DNA of 64,000 nucleotides from contig CACWQS010000002.1 in assembly GCA_902763155.1 (NCBI GenBank), positions 62,001-126,000 on the forward strand, given 5' to 3'. The notes beneath the pieces were generated by a model that was given only the letters and a program-made list of their open reading frames with translations, did no database searches and had not been told where the DNA came from. How positions within the stretch are numbered: position 1 is the stretch's first letter; each line of letters begins with the position of its first letter. Of this stretch, positions 49,397 to 61,483 are shown one piece after another. The position numbers were made by a program, and so were the translations under genes. The stretch is from an uncultured Pseudomonadota bacterium. GTDB lineage: Bacteria > Pseudomonadota > Alphaproteobacteria > RF32 > CAG-239.

Positions 49397-50185
49397 CTAT
49401 GAATTAAACTGTCTGACTGAGCCATTTAATTGTTGACAATTGCGGATGCTCTTATTTGATGGTTTTCCATATATTTTTCTCAAATTTTCAGACAAATCAT
49501 AAACCTTATCACCAATCGTAATTCCTCTGACTGGTTTGGAATCGCAAAATTTATCAATATCCGTAATTTTTAGCTCCTCATCAATAATTCCTTGTTTTTT
49601 CAAAGCTAAAAACTCCAGTCCCTCTTGCACGCCAGGTTTATTTTGATATTTTCGAGCAATTTCTTCCGGATATTTTCCTGAAACGATTCCATTTATCATA
49701 TTTATTTTGCTCAAAAACTTATTAATATCACGATAATCCTCACAAACATTTATCAATGCCAATGAAACATTTTTTAAGAATCCCAGTGCAAATCTGACTG
49801 TTTCGCTCTTTTGTCTTGCCTTGATACGCGTATTTATTTGGCGCATTTGCTGTTCAGTTGGTTCGCAATTAAAATCATATTCTTTTTTAAGATTAAATTT
49901 ACGCATAGTCATTTTAGCCATGAAGTATATCACGTCATCAGATAAATATCTTCCTTCATTATGCTTACTATGTGCTAAATCGGCGTAGTATTCAAGTGCA
50001 TCATTAAATTCCGGATACATTCCGGAAATATAATCTCCCAAATAAGAAGATTCATCAAAAGTAGTAAAAGGCGACAATTCATGTTTAGAAAAAGTATCAA
50101 GCGCTGAGTTAAACTCGTCGCTGTCACCTTTACTACAGCTATATCGTGTATTTGCGTATATATAAAGAGCGTATTCGGTTTTCAT
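49397..50185 (-). CDS. Hypothetical protein, 262 residues
   Basis: I do not recognise this protein. It has no signal peptide or membrane segment. The N-terminus reads MKTEYALYIYANTRYSCSK and the body looks helical, with a basic region near residues 120-135 (QINTRIKARQKSET). It is transcribed alone, between two terminator/CACCAAYA modules, like the genes around it. It may be a cassette-type accessory gene. Confidence 0.65.
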   Translation of the reverse strand: MKTEYALYIYANTRYSCSKGDSDEFNSALDTFSKHELSPFTTFDESSYLGDYISGMYPEFNDALEYYADLAHSKHNEGRYLSDDVIYFMAKMTMRKFNLKKEYDFNCEPTEQQMRQINTRIKARQKSETVRFALGFLKNVSLALINVCEDYRDINKFLSKINMINGIVSGKYPEEIARKYQNKPGVQEGLEFLALKKQGIIDEELKITDIDKFCDSKPVRGITIGDKVYDLSENLRKIYGKPSNKSIRNCQQLNGSVRQFNS

Positions 50186-51360: not shown

Positions 51361-51428
51361 TAAAAAGAAAAAGCAGGCTTTTAACAGCCTGCCGTTTGTA
51401 TTGGTGATGCTAACCTCGCAGATTACGA
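51361..51428 (-). repeat. Cassette boundary module B
   Basis: The hairpin GCAGGCT...CAGCCTGC with a T run on the minus strand, then the 28-base motif TTGGTGATGCTAACCTCGCA at 51401-51420 and onward to 51428. The same 28 bases with one change occur at 53762-53789. On the minus strand it reads like a tRNA 3' end (…ATCACCA). The NUDIX gene's stop is inside it. Confidence 0.7.
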
Positions 51429-52364
51429 GCTGAAATTGTCAAGATAATATTTAATTGCTATCAAAAATCCATCAAAAAATTGCTCGGGATTTTTTGTAAT
51501 TTCATGTTTTAAATCATGCAAAGAAACTTCTCTTACTTCTGCAACTTCGCTTTTATCCGGTATTGTTTTATCGTTAGAATGTGCTATAAAAACATGATGA
51601 AAAGCTATTTTTATGCCTTCTCTGATTATAGGGAAAGATGCAACTTCTCTATCAAATTCAGCGTTTATGCCGAGTTCTTCTTTTAATTCACGTTGAGCAG
51701 CAGTTATATAATCTTCTCCGGCATCAACATGTCCGGCTGCCGAATATGTCCATAATCCGCCCCATTTTTTATGTGAAGCAATTTTTTGCAAAATAAGATT
51801 ACCTTTTGAATTAAATAGCAAAACAGCCGCAATCATCGGATACCTATTTGCTTTCATCGGTGTTCCGCGTAAATGCGTTGATATTGTTTCATCATTTTCA
51901 TTTGCAACGGCAATCATCGGTAATCCCGCAGCTATCAATGCGTAAGGTGTTGCATTTTCTGTTGTTAATTTTTTAACATCCACCCAAACAGCACCGTTTG
52001 AATCAAAACCATCACCGCCTTTTTGCGGTATTCCTTTAATTTCAACATCATATAAAATTGCATTGTGTTGCAATACGCCTTTTTCTCCGCTGTCCGCAGT
52101 AAAATCCGAAAAAATTATCGATTTACAGCGTTCATTTTCTGCCTTCACAACTTCACAACCGGTTTCTTCCATAATTTCACGTTTCAAAGTATCTGCATAA
52201 CTTTCATCTTTTTCCTGACTTCCGCCTGGTAGATCATACATTCCGGTATAAGGACCGCGCGCTTTCTTAATTAGCAAAATTTTTCCGTTTTTAATTATGC
52301 TTCCGTAAACTCCGAAATGTGTTTTGGTTATTTTGGAATTGCGAATCAAAATTGCAGACAGCAT
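51423..52364 (-). CDS. Protein with two tandem NUDIX domains
   Basis: A 313-residue fusion of two NUDIX hydrolase domains. The first Nudix box lies at about residues 47-69 (GGSQEKDESYADTLKREIME, EETG) and the second at about 216-238 (GHVDAGEDYITAAQRELKEE, LGI). Both keep the REx2EE core that binds metal. Such enzymes cleave nucleoside diphosphates linked to other groups. Two full domains in one chain is uncommon in bacteria. The second half resembles isopentenyl-diphosphate isomerase-like NUDIX proteins (YPMIAAVLLFNSKG). It is 11 bases downstream of the kinase-GNAT gene, so they are cotranscribed. Confidence 0.85.
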   Translation of the reverse strand: MLSAILIRNSKITKTHFGVYGSIIKNGKILLIKKARGPYTGMYDLPGGSQEKDESYADTLKREIMEETGCEVVKAENERCKSIIFSDFTADSGEKGVLQHNAILYDVEIKGIPQKGGDGFDSNGAVWVDVKKLTTENATPYALIAAGLPMIAVANENDETISTHLRGTPMKANRYPMIAAVLLFNSKGNLILQKIASHKKWGGLWTYSAAGHVDAGEDYITAAQRELKEELGINAEFDREVASFPIIREGIKIAFHHVFIAHSNDKTIPDKSEVAEVREVSLHDLKHEITKNPEQFFDGFLIAIKYYLDNFSS

Positions 52365-52375
52365 TATTTTCTACC

Positions 52376-53347
52376 TCATAAATTTTTCTCTAGTTTTATA
52401 ATTGGAATTTCAAATTTCCACATTTTTTCATCATTTGTCGGCACAAAACCAATCTTTTTATAGAAAGGAAGAGACGGACCGAATTTCATTGTCCACACAA
52501 CGCATTTTAAGAATCCTTGTGCTTTTTTACTTTTGCATAAGTCATTTACCAATAAAGAACCCGCACCATGTTTTTGATATTGAGGATGCACGTATAGTGC
52601 GTTAATCTCAAAAACATCATCTGTAAGATATGATACATAAGCAAAAGCAATTGATTTATTTTCATATGTCACCAACCAACATTCTGTTTCTTTCAAATAC
52701 TTTTTTGTGCGTTCAATAATTTCACCATTAAATGGCATATTATCAATGTATTCATCAGGAAGATAGTTTTTATATGATTTTTGGTATGTTTCAATGTGTA
52801 TTTTCTTAATATCATAGGCATCATCAGGGGTTGCCCTGCAAATATTAAGACATAAAAAATTTAAAATTTTTTGCAAAGTTTCTTGAGGTGTTTGTAAGCT
52901 GTTATTTATAATTAAATCCGCAAATTTTGAACAATGATAACCTTCTTGATACATTTGCCTTATCCTTGCTTTTTCGCCTTCTGTTAACTTACGAGTTCCG
53001 CGATTTTGCAAACAAATATCAATATTAGGTGCTAATGTAATATTAATAAATTTTGTATTTTCATCTTCCCATAACTTCCATTGATGATATGTTTTATCTG
53101 TCATCGGATACGCAAAGATTATATTTTCATAGCATTGTAAATTTTTCTCTTGAACTATAATTGCATCAAGCCTTTTTAATCTTTCTGCCCAACCTTGTTC
53201 ACGAGTTAATTTCAACTTCACTTGCTCATCATCTGAAAGCAGATCATCTACCTCTATAAAAAGGCTTTGAGGTAGTTTTTCTTGCAACAATTTAGATATT
53301 GTCGTTTTACCGGAATTTATCGGACCATTGATATTTATGATTTTCAT
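52376..53347 (-). CDS. P-loop kinase fused to GNAT acetyltransferase
   Basis: A 323-residue fusion. The N-terminal half (about 1-165) has a Walker A GPINSGKTTISK and a kinase-like ADLIINNS end, as in small-molecule kinases of the CPT/shikimate kinase type. The C-terminal half (about 168-320) is a GNAT domain: ALYVHPQYQKHGAGSLLVNDL gives the acetyl-CoA loop and FYKKIGF the end motif. The pairing of phosphate and acetyl transfer suggests modification of a small molecule, perhaps an antibiotic; that is inference. The downstream NUDIX gene is in the same operon. Confidence 0.85.
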   Translation of the reverse strand: MKIININGPINSGKTTISKLLQEKLPQSLFIEVDDLLSDDEQVKLKLTREQGWAERLKRLDAIIVQEKNLQCYENIIFAYPMTDKTYHQWKLWEDENTKFINITLAPNIDICLQNRGTRKLTEGEKARIRQMYQEGYHCSKFADLIINNSLQTPQETLQKILNFLCLNICRATPDDAYDIKKIHIETYQKSYKNYLPDEYIDNMPFNGEIIERTKKYLKETECWLVTYENKSIAFAYVSYLTDDVFEINALYVHPQYQKHGAGSLLVNDLCKSKKAQGFLKCVVWTMKFGPSLPFYKKIGFVPTNDEKMWKFEIPIIKLEKNL

Positions 53348-53543
53348 TTTATACCTCTGAAAAGATTACACACTAAAATCAACAAAAAATCAATATCAGA
53401 TAAATTAATAACTCACAATTTTAGCCAATTATAATCAGCTAATCATTTGATTTTACCACATACTTACCGCAAAAGTTCGTAAAATTTCCCTTTAGTGCCA
53501 TTTTCAAAAAACAAAGATTCGAACTCGTATAAATGCTTGATTT

Positions 53544-53789
53544 AAAAAGAAAAAGCAGGCTTTTTACTGCCTGCCGTTTGTATTGGTGATCTTTGGCGGG
53601 ATTGACATTCGCTTCGCTCTTGTCCTGCGTCGTCGCTCGGTTTTTCAAACCTCACCGGCATACTCCCGTCTGCCTCTCCTCCTTGTCGAACCCAATTCCT
53701 ATGTGTTCGAACTCTTAAGAGTCACCAACAAAAAAGCCTCCCACAAGGGGAGGTTATTTTGTTGGTGATGCTAACCTCGCAGGTTACGA
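53544..53789 (-). repeat. Cassette boundary A and repeat element E2
   Basis: 53544-53590 matches module B (hairpin plus TATTGGTGAT). 53581-53730 is unit E2, minus strand, about 150 bases, related to E1 at 35.5 kb: both start GTTGGT, hold GTTYGACAAGGA then CAGACGGxAGTATG, and end CACCAATA. E2 ends are imperfect inverted repeats. A terminator (GCCTCCC/GGGAGG, 53734-53755) and a second 28-base copy of the tRNA-end-like motif (53762-53789) follow. The flanking 53348-53543 and 53790-53955 show no gene. Confidence 0.7.
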
Positions 53790-53955
53790 ACCAAACTATA
53801 ATTATTTTATGCCTTAGACGTATGTGTGACATTAGATGAATTTTTAATTAAAAAAATCATTGCATAATTATTTGAAATACCATATTTTTATTTCTAGCAA
53901 GAAAATCAGCTTTGAGAAGTAAATATTATATTATAAATAGCGGAGCGTGACATAC

Positions 53956-55446
53956 ATGAATAAGACAGAACTTGAAACCTTTATTAAAAATCAACGAGCT
54001 GTTTCTTCTAAACAAATTGTAAAACATTTTACTGACTTAGGAGAAAGAGCAGATACAGTAAGAAAAGCAATATCAAGACTCCATTCTCCTTATATGCGAT
54101 TAAAATATATTCGCTTAGCAAACAACGCCCAAATCCTGTATCATAAAGATAACTGGCTCACTACAGATTTTTATGAAACTGTTGTTGAAATTTTAAAAGA
54201 GGAGAATTCTATTTATGGTGCAGTATTGGAAGCAATAAAGGCCCGAGGAGGTTATGTCTTCGAAAAATATTTTCCCATATTATCGGGAACTGGAGAACAA
54301 AAAAATCACATTTGGCCTTCTCAAATAAAAGATAATTTAGTTATTTCAAAATTACTCATTGAAGATAATATAGAAAATTTTGGAAAGATATTATATTTAC
54401 CTGAACGTCAGACAGATAATATTGCTACACTTGTACGTGCAGATTGTGTACAAGAGCAGGTAATGCTACAAATTATGGAGAATTGGCTAAAAAAATTAAA
54501 CTTTATTACCTATAACCAAATATGCCATAAAAACCTGGATAATGATTTACCTAAATTTGCAACTACTTATTGGGACTTAACTTCACCATCTTATTTATTA
54601 CCATTAATGAAAAATAATAAACAAGGATCTGTCATTTGCGATTTGTTTTTAAAAGAAATTTCTGATGTTTCTCAAGTACAATATATTCTCAAAAAACTAG
54701 AATTACTATCTGTGCAAAAAAATATATCTAGGTACTTACCTATAATTATTTCACCAAATTTTTCTCAAGATGTATTTAAAGTATTGAAAGGACATGGAAT
54801 AATACCAGCTACCTTTAGTAATTTATTTGGAAAAGAAACTGCTGACTTATTTAGAGAACTATATATTTCACTACAAAATTTAACAGCAGCTATAATAAAG
54901 GATCCAAAGAAACAATATACTATTTTTGAAAAAATTGCTCGCTTTGAAAGTATCGCCAATCAAATAAGAGGACCTTTATTTGAAATGATTTGTGTGCATT
55001 TAGTTCACAGCATGAAAAACGGACTTATTGAAAATGGAAAAAACATATTTTGCAATCAGTTGAAAAAATCCCTTGAAATAGATATTATTAATGAAAGTCC
55101 AAGGGAAATATTTATTGTTGAATGTAAAGGATATTTGCCACATAATTTAGTAAGCTATGAAGAAGTAAGAAAATGGCTAGATAATATCACACATATCAGA
55201 AGAAGTCTTATTTCCGCAAATGAAGAAAGAAACAATAAAAAATTCATTTTTAATTTTTGGACATCAAGCGATTTTGATAAAGATGCTATAGAGTTATTCA
55301 GTGAAAGACATAGTAATTTATTGGAGATTCATTGGAAAAATGGAGATGAATTTATGCAAAAGTTGAAAGAATACAAATTAACCGGAGCTCAGAAGATGCT
55401 AAATGACTATTTTATTAAAAATTTTTTAGATAAACAATTATCTTAG
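53956..55446 (+). CDS. wHTH / PD-(D/E)XK-like nuclease, probable defence protein
   Basis: A 496-residue protein, start ATG 53956 (GGAG upstream) rather than GTG 53947. The first 70 residues (KQIVKHFTDLGERADTVRKAISRL) look like a winged helix. Near the end, EIDIINESPREIFIVECKGY has the Asp376, Glu389-x-Lys391 spacing of PD-(D/E)XK nucleases. The middle is helical and unknown. The gene converges on TcmP and DUF5131 genes. No known homologue is named with confidence. A restriction or abortive-infection role is inferred from nuclease motif and context. Confidence 0.7.
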   Translation: MNKTELETFIKNQRAVSSKQIVKHFTDLGERADTVRKAISRLHSPYMRLKYIRLANNAQILYHKDNWLTTDFYETVVEILKEENSIYGAVLEAIKARGGYVFEKYFPILSGTGEQKNHIWPSQIKDNLVISKLLIEDNIENFGKILYLPERQTDNIATLVRADCVQEQVMLQIMENWLKKLNFITYNQICHKNLDNDLPKFATTYWDLTSPSYLLPLMKNNKQGSVICDLFLKEISDVSQVQYILKKLELLSVQKNISRYLPIIISPNFSQDVFKVLKGHGIIPATFSNLFGKETADLFRELYISLQNLTAAIIKDPKKQYTIFEKIARFESIANQIRGPLFEMICVHLVHSMKNGLIENGKNIFCNQLKKSLEIDIINESPREIFIVECKGYLPHNLVSYEEVRKWLDNITHIRRSLISANEERNNKKFIFNFWTSSDFDKDAIELFSERHSNLLEIHWKNGDEFMQKLKEYKLTGAQKMLNDYFIKNFLDKQLS

Positions 55447-55475
55447 GATTGTATATACAAGAAGAACAATAAATC

Positions 55476-56396
55476 TTACTGTTTTCTAATATGTAATTTA
55501 TCCCCTTGTTGCATAACATAATTAGCTATTTTCTTTGCTGTAGCATTCTGTCCTGCCCAAATCAAGTAATACAATCCTCTGTTTTTTGTATTTTTAACCT
55601 TATATGGTATAGAAACATCACCGAATAATTGTTTTAATCTTTGGGCATACCATAATGCTAAAGTATCATCTGCACCCAAGTTCTTAGCAATTTCTGTTCC
55701 AAAAAGTGTTTGTTTTTCTGTATATATGAGGTTGAACCATTCATCACTGCCGAAAAAATCATTGTAGCTTTGAATTAATCTGCCGTTTTTCTCATTATAT
55801 TCAAATTTATTAGGTAGAAATCTTTCAATAGTTGTTTGAATAGGTAAATTTAAAATTATTTCCAAAGGTTGATTTGTAGGAGATAAATGTGCAATTCTTT
55901 CAATAGTTGCCCAAGGTATTTGCATCCCAAATGGATCTAGAAATATAACACCTCTTGATTTTTTCCAATTAAATCTAGATAAATAATCAAAAATGGCTTT
56001 ATTACAATCATCCTGAATAATTTCAATATTTTTATCTGGGTATTCCGTTTTAAGTTGTTGTAACTTCTTCACTCGATTTGCATCTAACTCTATAAAAAGG
56101 TAATGCGTAAAACACTTCTTTAAGTTTAAAGCTCTTAATGGAGAGCCATTAATATAAGCTGTTTCTTCTTCCTGTTTTTCATAGTTCCACAAATCAGGTA
56201 ATTCATCATCTTTTTCTTTGTTATATTTTCTTAATTCTGCCCTTCCCATTGCAGCAAAAGCATCAACATAAATAATATTTTCACACCATGATTGATTTTT
56301 AAGAATTGTAATATAAGCATTTAGATAATTCTCTAATTTGCTTAATTTATCTTCAGCCCATGGACCTACAGTATCATCGGAACAATAACTAGACAT
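55476..56396 (-). CDS. tcmP: Three-Cys-motif partner protein (TcmP)
   Basis: A 306-residue protein of the TcmP family. It has a Rossmann methyltransferase-like core: YVDAFAAMGRAE (motif I region), FIELDANRVKKLQQL and GVIFLDPFGMQIPW. The family name comes from its pairing with a three-Cys-motif protein, which here is the DUF5131 gene 11 bases upstream in the operon. The biochemical role is unknown. It converges on the nuclease-like gene, with 29 bases between the stops, so the three genes form one compact module. Confidence 0.85.
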   Translation of the reverse strand: MSSYCSDDTVGPWAEDKLSKLENYLNAYITILKNQSWCENIIYVDAFAAMGRAELRKYNKEKDDELPDLWNYEKQEEETAYINGSPLRALNLKKCFTHYLFIELDANRVKKLQQLKTEYPDKNIEIIQDDCNKAIFDYLSRFNWKKSRGVIFLDPFGMQIPWATIERIAHLSPTNQPLEIILNLPIQTTIERFLPNKFEYNEKNGRLIQSYNDFFGSDEWFNLIYTEKQTLFGTEIAKNLGADDTLALWYAQRLKQLFGDVSIPYKVKNTKNRGLYYLIWAGQNATAKKIANYVMQQGDKLHIRKQ

Positions 56397-56407
56397 ACAA
56401 TGACTCC

Positions 56408-57142
56408 TTATGCTGATTGAGGCATTTCTCTATATGTTTTATTTTCTAAAAGATGACCATTTTCTTTTTTAGAACGTTTTTTCATATCTTCGCCCCAAGT
56501 TCCCCATTGTTTAAAGTAAAAGGCAACATCTTGTTCTTCACATTGATTTTTTATATTGATAGCCCATTCTTTTTGCATAGGACGAGCCTTAGGGCCACTT
56601 TCTCCACCGACAATAATCCAATCTAATCCTGAAAAATCAACATCTCCTAAATCTTCCAACAAAGGTTCAACCGATAAAAATTTTATTGTTGCATCTTTAA
56701 CTGATTTTAAATAATCAATTCTAGGTAAACCTTCTTTCTTATTTTCAACAGTAACACCTAACCAAACATTTTCGGGAATCTTTCTTGTTTGAAAATATTT
56801 TGCCATAATATCAGCCCTTTTAGTTAATACTTGAAATTTATGCCAAGTTGCTTTTCTTATGGTATCAAAAACTTTATCAATAAATTCAAAAGGCACTTTT
56901 TCATGAAATAAATCACTCATAGAATTTACAAAATACATCGTAGGCTTTTTGTTATTTAGTGGTTCATTAAGACGATCTGGTCTCATTGTAAGTTGAAAAC
57001 CATTTTCATATCCTTTGGTTCCCATAGCTTGAAGCCTTCTGGCCATAACTTCCGCATAACAGTTTTTGCATCCTCCACTAATTTTTGTGCAACCAGTTAA
57101 AGGATTCCAAGTTTCTTCTGTCCACTCTATTCTACTTGCCAT
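56408..57142 (-). CDS. DUF5131 / phage Gp37-Gp68 family three-Cys-motif protein
   Basis: A 244-residue protein. The start MASRIEWTEETWNPLTGCTKISGGCKNCYAE has the three-Cys motif C-x6-C-x2-C (Cys18, 25, 28), which resembles a radical-SAM cluster site. The rest (MYFVNSMSDLFHEKVP, WHKFQVLTKRADIM, WLGVTVENKK, FLSVEPLLEDLG, WIIVGGESGPKARPM) is typical of DUF5131/Gp37-Gp68. The reaction is not known. The paired TcmP gene follows after 11 bases, and the recombinase genes are upstream. Confidence 0.88.
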   Translation of the reverse strand: MASRIEWTEETWNPLTGCTKISGGCKNCYAEVMARRLQAMGTKGYENGFQLTMRPDRLNEPLNNKKPTMYFVNSMSDLFHEKVPFEFIDKVFDTIRKATWHKFQVLTKRADIMAKYFQTRKIPENVWLGVTVENKKEGLPRIDYLKSVKDATIKFLSVEPLLEDLGDVDFSGLDWIIVGGESGPKARPMQKEWAINIKNQCEEQDVAFYFKQWGTWGEDMKKRSKKENGHLLENKTYREMPQSA

Positions 57143-57251: not shown

Positions 57252-58859
57252 TTACTCCTCATTCATATTCATTCTGATTTTATACATCTGTATTTGGTTG
57301 GCGAGGTTTTCGTATTCCGGTGCATCAGATTTATCAAACTCAAACCAATTATCGCTATTTTTCAAATTTATCAGCATATCAAATGGTTTTCTAAGTTTAT
57401 ATATCAGTTTTGTGCCGTCTAAGTAGCATTCATTAAGTATAAGCCCAAGCAAATTATTTTGTTGCTCTGGATTCGCTTTTTTCATAATTTCTGACGCACA
57501 AGCCGCAATATCCAAAACTTCATTAACTGTATATTGTATGTCTCTGCTTATATCTGCATATTTTTCCGCAGTGTGCTGTAATTCTTCTCTTTTACTTGCA
57601 ATATTGGCTTTTTCTTCGTTCCATTCTTCACGTGTTATGTCACCATTGAAAAAACAGTCCTTAACTCTCTGCTCTCGTGCTTCCAATTGGTTTAATTCAC
57701 AGGTAATCTGTCTTTTCATTACCGCATTAGCCTCTGAATCTTCCGTCATTTTCTTAATTACACATTTTTTGAGTAAATCAATAATGTTTGCATTTAGCCT
57801 GATTTTACTGAACACTTCATCATCAAGTTGCTGTAAAATAAGCGATTCTCTAACTGTTTTCTGATTGCAATTATCCCTTGGATGAGTACAACGCAAATAT
57901 ACGTAACCTTTATGATGTTCAGATGATATGGTACCACCGCATTCCGCACATTTTATTAATTTACGAAAAGCAAATGATATACCACCATATTCTCTAGTCG
58001 GCATAGATGCATTTTTACCTGACAATATGTCCTGCACTTTATCAAATAAAGCTTTTGATATAATTGGCTCGTATCTATGTGGCATTATTTCACCACGAAT
58101 ACGCATTTCTCCGTAGTAAAATGAATTCTTAAGCATATTCCAGATAGTTTCTCGGCCCAGAGGTTTATGATTTTTACTTCTGATTGAACATAAATTTATT
58201 TCTTCTGCAAATTTTTTTAGGCTTTTTATGGAATAACAACCGGTTGCGTACATTTCAAACATCTTTTTAACCAAAGGAGCACGTTCCGGATCTACAACAA
58301 TCGTTGCCGGTGTAGTTTTAGTTTTTGGTACATTTAAGTATCCGACAGGAGATTTTGATTGGTATTCACCATTAGACCATTTATACTCCATACCGCGATT
58401 AACATTATCTCTCAAGTTTGCAACATACATTTTGCCGGATAAAATGCCCATGTCCCAACGCATAATATCTGCTGAAGAACTATTTTTAGTCAGTATCAAG
58501 TCTTCTTTACAAAAATGTATATCAATCTTATCATCAAGAAGTAGCGTCTCAACTTCAACACATTCATTGAAACGACGTTGAAAGCGATCAATACAATGCA
58601 CAACAACAGCTGTTTTCTTTTTCTGCTTGCGAACGAAATCTAACATTTGATGAAAAACAATACGTTTACCATTGGTTGAACTTTCAATAGCCCTGTATTT
58701 ATTCAAAATTTTCAAACCTTTTTTAGCACAATACTCTTCCATTGCGACTTTCTGTGCATCCAAAGAAGCTCCCGGTTCCTGTTCTTTGGTAGATACTCTC
58801 GCAAAAATTATAGCCTGTTCGCATGGTGCAGCTTTTGCATATCTATATTTTTTTGCCAT
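57252..58859 (-). CDS. Large serine recombinase
   Basis: A 535-residue large serine recombinase (integrase or invertase). The catalytic domain has AIIFARVSTKEQ with nucleophile Ser23 and VVVHCIDRFQRRFNE (Arg cluster). A recombinase domain (about 170-290) with FYYGEMRIRGEIMPHRYEPIIS follows, then a zinc ribbon (CAECGGTI and RCTHPRDNC, near residues 318-345) and a coiled coil (about 360-450). All parts expected for an active phiC31/TnpX-like enzyme are present. An AAAGGAGAG site precedes the start. The promoter lies between inverted repeats (58874-58943). Confidence 0.93.
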   Translation of the reverse strand: MAKKYRYAKAAPCEQAIIFARVSTKEQEPGASLDAQKVAMEEYCAKKGLKILNKYRAIESSTNGKRIVFHQMLDFVRKQKKKTAVVVHCIDRFQRRFNECVEVETLLLDDKIDIHFCKEDLILTKNSSSADIMRWDMGILSGKMYVANLRDNVNRGMEYKWSNGEYQSKSPVGYLNVPKTKTTPATIVVDPERAPLVKKMFEMYATGCYSIKSLKKFAEEINLCSIRSKNHKPLGRETIWNMLKNSFYYGEMRIRGEIMPHRYEPIISKALFDKVQDILSGKNASMPTREYGGISFAFRKLIKCAECGGTISSEHHKGYVYLRCTHPRDNCNQKTVRESLILQQLDDEVFSKIRLNANIIDLLKKCVIKKMTEDSEANAVMKRQITCELNQLEAREQRVKDCFFNGDITREEWNEEKANIASKREELQHTAEKYADISRDIQYTVNEVLDIAACASEIMKKANPEQQNNLLGLILNECYLDGTKLIYKLRKPFDMLINLKNSDNWFEFDKSDAPEYENLANQIQMYKIRMNMNEE

Positions 58860-58998: not shown

Positions 58999-59787
58999 TC
59001 AATGTGTGCGCTTAGCTAATACTTCCTGCACTCTATCAAATGTTGATTTATTAATAAAAGTAGGATAGTTGTGGTAATAAAGCTTTCCTTTCCAGCGTTG
59101 CATACCGTAATAGAATGGATTTTTGAGTATATCGTTTACACAGGTTTTTGAAACAGGCACACCTTTCTTGTTTTTCAATCCCAAAACATGTGCTAATTCG
59201 GTTAATTCTTTTATTGTATACAACTCTGTCTCATAAGCCATAAACAATTTCGCAATGATGGAAGCTGCCTTAGGCTCTACAACAACATTCGAGTGACCGG
59301 AAGCATCTCGAGTATTTTTATAACCAATAGGAGCCAAATGCATAAGATATCCCTGTTTTACATAATAGATTTGTGCTTTTTTTATGTTATTATTATACCA
59401 TTGAATACAATACACATTTGAAGTCATCATTAAATAACTATTTCTTTTATCAATAATTAGTGCTTCTTCATATGAATGTATAGTTACTTTGCCACCTATT
59501 ACAAGATTTTTAAATAAATACATTAAATTAAAATATAGGAATTTAGTTACGATATGAATTTTACCGGTTTGTTCTCTGACAAAAGCAAGCATATCATTTG
59601 CATTTTTTTTAGCATCTCTTGGAGTACATAAATATATTTTTATAACTTCAAGATTCTTGTCGCTACAGTAGTTAATTAGATTATCTATTATATTTTTGCT
59701 CGCTTTTCTTTTAACAGAACAAAAAATTACCGCTTTTTCTCTATTCGGACCAAAATTTTCTTCATCACCAAATATTATATTTTTCAT
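58999..59787 (-). CDS. Serine recombinase paralogue without catalytic serine
   Basis: A 262-residue protein related to the next gene. The N-terminal region aligned with the catalytic domain reads VIFCSVKRKAS instead of IFARVSTKEQ, so the Arg and Ser of ARVS are replaced (Ser24, Lys26), and the Arg cluster is not seen. The C-terminal recombinase-domain part is kept: YYVKQGYLMHLAPIGY, VVVEPKAASIIAKLF and DILKNPFYYGMQRWKGKLY. It stops before the zinc ribbon. It may bind sites or pair with the active recombinase as an accessory factor. It lies just left of the inverted-repeat segment. Confidence 0.8.
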   Translation of the reverse strand: MKNIIFGDEENFGPNREKAVIFCSVKRKASKNIIDNLINYCSDKNLEVIKIYLCTPRDAKKNANDMLAFVREQTGKIHIVTKFLYFNLMYLFKNLVIGGKVTIHSYEEALIIDKRNSYLMMTSNVYCIQWYNNNIKKAQIYYVKQGYLMHLAPIGYKNTRDASGHSNVVVEPKAASIIAKLFMAYETELYTIKELTELAHVLGLKNKKGVPVSKTCVNDILKNPFYYGMQRWKGKLYYHNYPTFINKSTFDRVQEVLAKRTH

Positions 59788-60690: not shown

Positions 60691-60979
60691 ATCTGTTTAT
60701 CTGAATATCTTATTACTTCTTTCTATTATTCTATCCATACATATTATGCTTTTTACTATAACTGAAAATAAAGTAATATTGTAGCGAGATTTTTAGGCAA
60801 TTTATAAACTTTATCCGGTAAATAGTTAACACGTCTTCTATCCTCAAATGTTTGGAATAATCATCAATACAAGTCAAATTGCTATCCTTAGGACTCATTG
60901 AACGCCGTTCGGCAAGCCTCTTTTTATGAAAATGGTAAATTGTCAGCCAAAATTAAATTCGTTGTTATGGAGTCAAAAA

Positions 60980-61483
60980 ATGAACAATCTTAAAAAAACA
61001 CAAAAATTAAAAAATATCATTAATCGTTGGATGCAGTCATATAATCCTACCCATTTTCTGACAGTGAGATTGCCGGAGCATATAGAATCAGCTAATTTTG
61101 ATATATCGCAACGAATCTTAAAGAGAGTTATGGCAGCTTTTGAATATCGTTTGCTTGGCCGGCATTGGCATAAAAAGCATTTACCATTTATTGTGGCTAC
61201 AGAGAAAGGACATGGAACTGTTTGGCATTATCATATATTATTTAACCAGCAGACATTTAGCGAAGAAAGCTTAAATCTAGCCATATTCAGGACAATTACA
61301 GCGTTAAGATATCCATTTTATTCATTGGAACTGGAGAAAATTATGCAATATAAAGATTATGTTATCACATATTGCTCAAAAGAAATCCGTATTAAACAGT
61401 TTGATACTTCCGAGAGCGATAAAATAATCCCATCGCATGTATTGTTTGATATACCTGTCAAAAATCAAAATCCGATTAATTGA
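60980..61483 (+). CDS. HUH-type Rep-like protein
   Basis: A 167-residue protein; start ATG 60980 with GGAG seven bases upstream (a longer frame begins at 60926). Motif I is FLTVRL (about 26-31), motif II is WHYHILF (His83, His85), the HUH metal pair, and a Tyr set lies in YKDYVITYCSKE (Tyr124, Tyr127, Tyr131), one of which would be the DNA-joining Tyr. This matches the small rolling-circle Rep group seen in plasmids and inovirus-like elements. The stop lies in the IR-R palindrome. It is the main enzyme of the 1.7-kb segment. Confidence 0.75.
   Translation: MNNLKKTQKLKNIINRWMQSYNPTHFLTVRLPEHIESANFDISQRILKRVMAAFEYRLLGRHWHKKHLPFIVATEKGHGTVWHYHILFNQQTFSEESLNLAIFRTITALRYPFYSLELEKIMQYKDYVITYCSKEIRIKQFDTSESDKIIPSHVLFDIPVKNQNPIN

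Follow-up and report, generated by a model that had tools for sequence, protein, structure and literature searches.

A PD-(D/E)XK nuclease-like gene and a TcmP-DUF5131 pair as two probably independent modules of a recombinase-linked island in an uncultured alphaproteobacterium

Gene content of the locus

We analysed a stretch of 64,000 nucleotides (hereafter, the window) from the genome of an uncultured gut alphaproteobacterium (1.47 Mb, 21 contigs, 98.45% complete), in which a nuclease-like gene converges on a pair of genes encoding a TcmP protein and a DUF5131 protein, beside site-specific recombinases. The nuclease-like gene (53956..55446, forward strand) encodes a putative protein of 496 amino acids with an N-terminal winged helix-turn-helix (wHTH), a middle domain and a C-terminal PD-(D/E)XK nuclease-like domain, as judged from its open reading frame (ORF), an alignment of its family (alignment A1), a weak match to NERD and a profile match to Card1. 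Its residues are numbered here from the ATG at 53956; an alternative GTG start lies at 53947. A gap of 29 bases (55447..55475), in which no terminator-like site was found, separates its stop codon from that of the TcmP gene (55476..56396, reverse strand), which encodes an RlmJ-like class I methyltransferase-like protein of 306 amino acids identified with TIGR04474, the PADLOC model PDC-M41A and an RlmJ profile. The DUF5131 gene (56408..57142, reverse strand) lies 11 bases from the TcmP gene and encodes 244 amino acids with a CX6CX2C motif; it was assigned on the basis of PF07505 and of a model with a fold like that of radical S-adenosylmethionine (SAM) enzymes. All three frames are open and full length, and the G+C content of the region (~0.29-0.34) is below that of most of the window. 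This layout, including the gap between the stop codons, agrees with an earlier reading of the same DNA (hereafter, the original prediction), which had also treated the three genes as one cluster in a setting typical of defence islands.

Co-occurrence of the three genes

One set of 398 genomes from the phylum was searched for both TcmP and the nuclease family. TcmP was found above the cut-off in 24 genomes and the nuclease family in two, and the sole genome with both was that of the window. The surroundings of TcmP were then compared in the 23 other genomes, in stretches of up to 20 kb (~10 kb on each side), some of them shortened by contig ends. DUF5131 adjoined TcmP in all 23, consistent with the pairing that the original prediction had described as known; the nuclease was present in none of these stretches. 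No third gene lay near the pair in more than four of the 24 loci compared, window included.

The survey was extended to 31 pair loci outside the window, consisting of the 23 genomes, the plasmid and phage loci L127-L131, a further genome locus (L121) and two viral contigs (L102 and L105), and the nuclease was found at none of them. Conversely, neither TcmP nor DUF5131 was found at any of 23 nuclease loci outside the window (L003, L005-L024, L061 and L081; ~2-9 kb on each side, three being whole small plasmids). Some of these loci are close copies (L012/L013; L008/L017 with L019 and L020; L021/L022), so that the number of independent cases is smaller than 23. The three-gene system was rejected on these counts. 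Because no nuclease locus (0/23) and no pair locus (0/31) combines them, the three genes do not form one conserved unit, contrary to what had been predicted, and we conclude that the nuclease and TcmP-DUF5131 are two separate modules in an exchangeable, recombinase-linked island. Adjacency within such an island need not indicate a single system.

Exchange of parts of the island

The recombinases expected beside the pair were found. A large serine recombinase with Resolvase, Recombinase and Zn ribbon domain matches (57252..58859, reverse strand, 535 amino acids) is followed in tandem by a recombinase-like gene (58999..59787, reverse strand, 262 amino acids), for which the Recombinase domain was the sole match in the Pfam search and no catalytic domain was matched.

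The nearest relative of the window nuclease, with 71% protein identity, comes from an uncultured proteobacterium (L003). The two loci are similar in DNA (77%) over the whole gene and the 135 bases that precede its ATG. Upstream of its nuclease, L003 has an AbiU gene (581 bits). Downstream, at the place of TcmP-DUF5131, it has a different convergent gene of 267 amino acids that matched nothing in Pfam or PADLOC within the limits applied, and beyond this gene lies a remnant of the same family of large serine recombinase as in the window. The window recombinase itself is 89% identical at the DNA level to one in contig C55 of genome G741 (G741:C55), where the neighbouring gene is phosphoribosyltransferase-like, unlike that in the window. 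A DNA search of 21 genomes of the same genus gave no match to the nuclease, TcmP or DUF5131 stretch; DUF5131 DNA was matched in a single genome from the order and, in short pieces, in a single genome from the class. From these comparisons, the nuclease, the pair and the recombinase therefore look like separately exchanged parts.

Two minor observations concern the same region. In L087, a short ORF (266-649) read as recombinase-like occupies the corresponding position next to the G741 recombinase that shares 89% identity. The intergenic stretch at 53447-53591 recurs in numerous contigs of the genus and also at other sites in the window's own genome.

The nuclease family

A tblastn search with the window nuclease matched 357 of 72,556 plasmid records, 318 of them over at least 80% of the protein, with 23-31% identity among the matches listed. 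The 50,697 phage records gave no match. In viral contigs, the search for relatives yielded a single full-length locus (L081, recorded also as L125 from the same contig) and a fragment (L126); the fragment was excluded from the locus count but retained as a row of alignment A4. A further candidate, L002 (G116, 111 residues, E 8.2e-6), was not confirmed by the family hidden Markov model and was dropped from the counts.

Alignment A1 comprises 20 members, the near-copies L013 (of L012) and L008 (of L017) being omitted. It has 19 invariant positions, including D229 and K247 in the middle domain and E343, D376, E389 and K391 in the C-terminal domain; position 374 is E in 18 members and D in two. 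Invariance of D376, E389 and K391 in 20 of 20 sequences far exceeds chance, because most rows are only 21-28% identical overall. The original prediction had singled out these three residues as a PD-(D/E)XK-like motif, and both the alignment and the comparison with Card1 speak in its favour. Comparison of the A1 profile with PDB sequences gave a single match at E <0.1, in the nuclease domain of Card1 (E 0.0052); kinase and lectin matches of single sequences (E ≥0.09) were dropped as chance. The motif F-E ... E-x-D ... E-C-K can be aligned with Card1 position by position, E374-x-D376 falling on E292-x-D294 and E389-C-K391 on E308-C-K310. In the Card1-related Can2, the double mutant E276A/D278A is reported to be inactive (PMC7969007). 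By its conserved acidic residues and E-x-K, the C-terminal domain has the residue pattern of PD-(D/E)XK domains. The N terminus differs from that of Card1 and Can2 in that it is a wHTH in the model rather than a recognised CARF domain; no CARF family occurs among the Pfam hits of the 20 members, and the model is too poor to exclude one.

Matches to named families were partial. NERD and Mrr_cat were each matched by four of the 20 members, in the C-terminal part where positions are shown, and the CARF-PDDEXK/Csx1 models of PADLOC were each matched by one to three. The NERD cut-off was passed by two members (L011, 25.6 bits; L021, 25.1 bits), and the members on small plasmids carry a NERD annotation, but NERD (PF08378) spans just the C-terminal part of the protein. 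By sequence, the nuclease belongs to a wide family that none of the searched libraries names as such. The DefensePredictor paper, in which 13 systems with PD-(D/E)XK domains are validated, does not mention NERD in its main text (PMC13092281).

Structural comparison was based on a low-confidence model (predicted local distance difference test, pLDDT, 54.8). Its order of helices and strands fits PD-(D/E)XK, and restriction-endonuclease-like chains are among its best matches (Z 6-8). Residues 367-474 of this low-confidence model were matched to RPB5, AF1548 (1y88) and the ends of Avs3/Avs4 (Z 6.0-8.2), the matched part of RPB5 being, we presume, restriction-endonuclease-like; residues 1-65 were matched to MarR (Z 6.0, root-mean-square deviation [rmsd] 2.1). 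The middle domain (224-302) was superimposed on residues 174-240 of EndoMS/NucS (Z 6.1-6.7, rmsd 2.1-2.5, 64-67 residues), and the alignment places D229 near position 179, which we take to be the E of the EndoMS E-x-K. Unlike EndoMS, the nuclease has no Lys two residues further on, its invariant K247 lying elsewhere. NucS_C matched one member (L018) weakly (E 0.051). Foldseek alone returned nothing at E ≤0.001, and the model consequently serves as support only. The absence of a family from the fold-search list was not counted as evidence. Two outcomes had been named in the original prediction as jointly counting against it: the nuclease is indeed not conserved beside the pair, yet a PD-(D/E)XK core does not appear to be lacking, to judge from the alignment, profile and fold matches.

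Carriers and neighbours of the nuclease

Of the 357 plasmid records, 193 are typed as conjugative. Two 3.6-kb plasmids, from E. coli and Salmonella, have the nuclease as their main gene and otherwise contain only replication-type or short genes. Among 5,426 E. coli genomes, one type of nuclease was found in 20 and another in 71, almost all on plasmids; the latter type includes E. coli W (plasmid-sized records NC_017637 and NC_017665). The nuclease is also present in genome contigs (L003 and L061) that were not typed as plasmids and in the viral contig L081, in which an adjoining gene was tentatively read as that of a phage terminase.

PADLOC was run on 20 chosen neighbours from nine of the 23 nuclease loci. 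GajA and GajB were identified near the nuclease in four loci (L012, L013, L016 and L024), SIR2 and HerA in L017, AbiU in L003, PifA in L018, PDC-M01A/B in L012 and PD-T4-5 in L008. The single neighbour scanned in L010 gave no match. In four enterobacterial plasmids (L008, L017, L019 and L020), a HEPN gene (pEK499_p136) and a hypothetical gene lie ahead of the nuclease; after it come a DUF4238 gene and a small gene in L017, L019 and L020, and an insertion sequence in L008. This order may point to a larger unit around the nuclease on enterobacterial plasmids.

The TcmP-DUF5131 pair

The DUF5131 protein matched PF07505 with 351 bits (cut-off 28.9) and the PADLOC models PDC-M30B and PDC-M41B with 378 and 364 bits, respectively. 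Cys18, Cys25 and Cys28 are invariant in 19 aligned proteins, which bears out the three cysteines noted previously. A model built from 19 sequences was of good quality (pLDDT 90.3, predicted template modelling score [pTM] 0.87). Its best fold match was spore photoproduct lyase (Z 13.5, rmsd 2.9, 193 residues), followed by viperin-like enzymes (Z 11.8) and RlmN (Z 11.2); rows 1-34 of the fold search were all radical SAM enzymes (Z 13.5-9.2), and Foldseek alone also placed spore photoproduct lyase first (E 2.1e-4). In the model, the protein has the partial TIM barrel typical of radical SAM enzymes. It differs from spore photoproduct lyase in its low identity (12%) and in having CX6CX2C rather than the canonical radical-SAM motif CX3CX2C, and for this last reason we regard DUF5131 as working like a radical SAM enzyme and do not file it as a canonical member.

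TcmP matched TIGR04474 with 188 bits (cut-off 53) and PDC-M41A with 213 bits. Its profile matched RlmJ structures (E 0.0013) over positions 34-156, from motif I to motif IV. RlmJ is a 23S rRNA adenine N6-methyltransferase, and the TIGR04474 search also gave signals below the cut-off in E. coli and many other genomes, at profile positions ~20-136, which would fit an RlmJ-like ancestry of TcmP. In motif IV, D154 is present in 17 of 17 sequences and P155 in 11, followed by F, Y or C. TcmP differs from RlmJ in having D-P-F-G at this motif, where RlmJ has DPPY, in its pairing with DUF5131 and in the GMT-wHTH end of the long TcmPs (6/17). Two TcmP genes lie beside one DUF5131 gene in L062, L066, L070, L127 and L129.

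On its model matches, the pair can be identified with the PADLOC candidate system PDC-M41, which is already listed, and also corresponds to PDC-M30; both genes are present and adjacent, and nothing structural differs. Word searches of the open literature found the pair as names in tables, with no assigned mechanism or test. The radical-SAM-like fold of DUF5131 and the likeness of TcmP to RlmJ are new in this analysis. Three plasmid loci, chosen from annotation or position, have PADLOC-matched neighbours: AbiD in L128 (from Leisingera), HamA/HamB and BovA in L129, and a PDC-S28 protein in L127 (pSymA of S. meliloti 1021). In a table of a report on S. meliloti, TcmP (SMa2243) and the phage-defence gene hna (SMa2245) are listed in one putative unit, both being about twofold up with NolR (PMC12445080). 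An 845-amino-acid ORF ~80 bases upstream of TcmP in L127 is, judging from its position, probably Hna.

Interpretation and alternative explanations

The preferred reading, to which we give a probability of about 0.6, is that of two independent modules, a self-contained activated nuclease beside a two-enzyme pair that modifies nucleic acids. In the first module, the wHTH (~1-65) would bind nucleic acid or sense a trigger, and the middle PD-(D/E)XK-like domain (~205-300), which lacks the usual E-x-K, might act as a sensing or clamping part. The nuclease would be held off until the trigger reached one of these two domains. Upon invasion, the C-terminal domain (E343, E374-x-D376 and E389-C-K391), with a metal ion, would cut DNA or RNA, and either the invader would be cleared or the cell killed. 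In the second module, DUF5131 would perform radical chemistry on a nucleic acid or nucleotide and TcmP would add a methyl group or hold the substrate, the two jointly altering that molecule in the conflict between phage and host. For the first step of this scheme, the residues and folds involved are backed by conservation and modelling; the later steps (cutting, radical chemistry and methyl transfer, with their substrates, the trigger and defence itself) we infer. The defence-island setting of the original prediction holds for each module separately, given the defence genes near their relatives, but not for a single cluster.

Several observations weigh against this reading. The window nuclease matches no PADLOC model and scores 18.3 bits against NERD PF08378, below the cut-off of 22.1. 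Only four sequences were used as input for its fold prediction, which was poor (pTM 0.30 at the pLDDT given above), so that the fold assignment rests on sequence and weak partial matches. Chaperonin domains match residues 224-310 of the model at Z values similar to those of EndoMS, making the assignment of the middle domain a suggestion only. DUF5131 has neither CX3CX2C nor a Pfam radical-SAM match. In motif I of the window TcmP, the SAM-binding motif, D45, F47 and G51 are kept, but A49 stands where 16 of 17 sequences have Gly. Finally, annotation guided the choice of the loci whose neighbours were scanned, and there was no matched control; the presence of defence genes in eight of nine nuclease loci is not an unbiased rate.

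A more ambitious joint reading is put forward only tentatively. The nuclease would be a widespread, unnamed, self-contained defence nuclease, disseminated on plasmids of Enterobacteria and Alphaproteobacteria, that combines a wHTH with an active PD-(D/E)XK-like domain and a second such domain adapted to sensing. The accompanying pair would be a chemical defence, with a radical-SAM enzyme akin to photoproduct lyase and an RlmJ-like methyltransferase acting together to alter a nucleic acid or nucleotide, whether invading or targeted. To our knowledge, viperin-type enzymes are the only ones with radical-SAM chemistry in immunity. Two families labelled "unknown" become testable enzymes: the radical-SAM fold offers a first concrete chemistry to seek, both for the PDC-M41 candidate and for phages carrying DUF5131, and the nuclease relatives on the E. 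coli W records and the 3.6-kb plasmids make a single-gene test easy.

Among the alternatives, a repair or RNA-modification pair serving mobile elements, rather than defence, retains some plausibility without being the favoured explanation of TcmP-DUF5131. The closest fold to DUF5131 is a DNA-repair lyase, with RlmN nearby, and TcmP resembles an rRNA methyltransferase. DUF5131 is also present in 159 of 50,697 phage records, against five for TcmP, and stands without TcmP in 17 of the 19 viral contigs L102-L120. This explanation sits less well with the Hachiman (HamA/HamB), AbiD, BovA and PDC-S28 genes beside pair loci and with the listing of the pair by PADLOC as candidate defence.

It is rather unlikely that the nuclease serves to exclude competing plasmids or integrating elements, or to regulate its own mobile element, instead of acting as an anti-phage effector. 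Its abundance on plasmids, many of them conjugative, its position as main gene of the 3.6-kb plasmids and its lack of matches in the phage records would suit such a role, which accounts less readily for the Gabija, AbiU and PifA genes near it in six loci and for its presence in L081, L003 and L061.

Decay of one or both modules in the window is improbable: the Ala at position 49 of TcmP and the second recombinase-like gene without a catalytic domain match would be compatible with it, but the three frames are intact and the nuclease motif residues and DUF5131 cysteines are retained. Still less credible is the nuclease as an occasional accessory of Gabija, as GajA/GajB occur near it in only four of 23 loci and in differing orientations, tiny plasmids carry it without Gabija, and no Gabija gene was detected among six window proteins scanned. 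A single defence system, in which the pair would mark or detect nucleic acid and the nuclease execute, has in its favour the adjacency of the genes here, 29 bases apart, and is largely refuted by the survey counts, the opposite strands and the other gene in the pair's place in L003.

Other features of the window

Other genes of the window were recorded in passing. A replication-associated protein of the ORF2/G2P-like type (60926-61483, forward strand; PF23343, 28.8 bits, cut-off 27.8) hints at a phage or plasmid remnant. On the other side of the locus, on the reverse strand, one protein (52376-53347) has an AAA_18/kinase-like match followed by a GNAT acetyltransferase match, and its neighbour (51423-52364) has two NUDIX matches. 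Further away, a protein encoded at 49397-50185 (reverse strand) gave a weak match to the PADLOC model AbiTi (18.5 bits).

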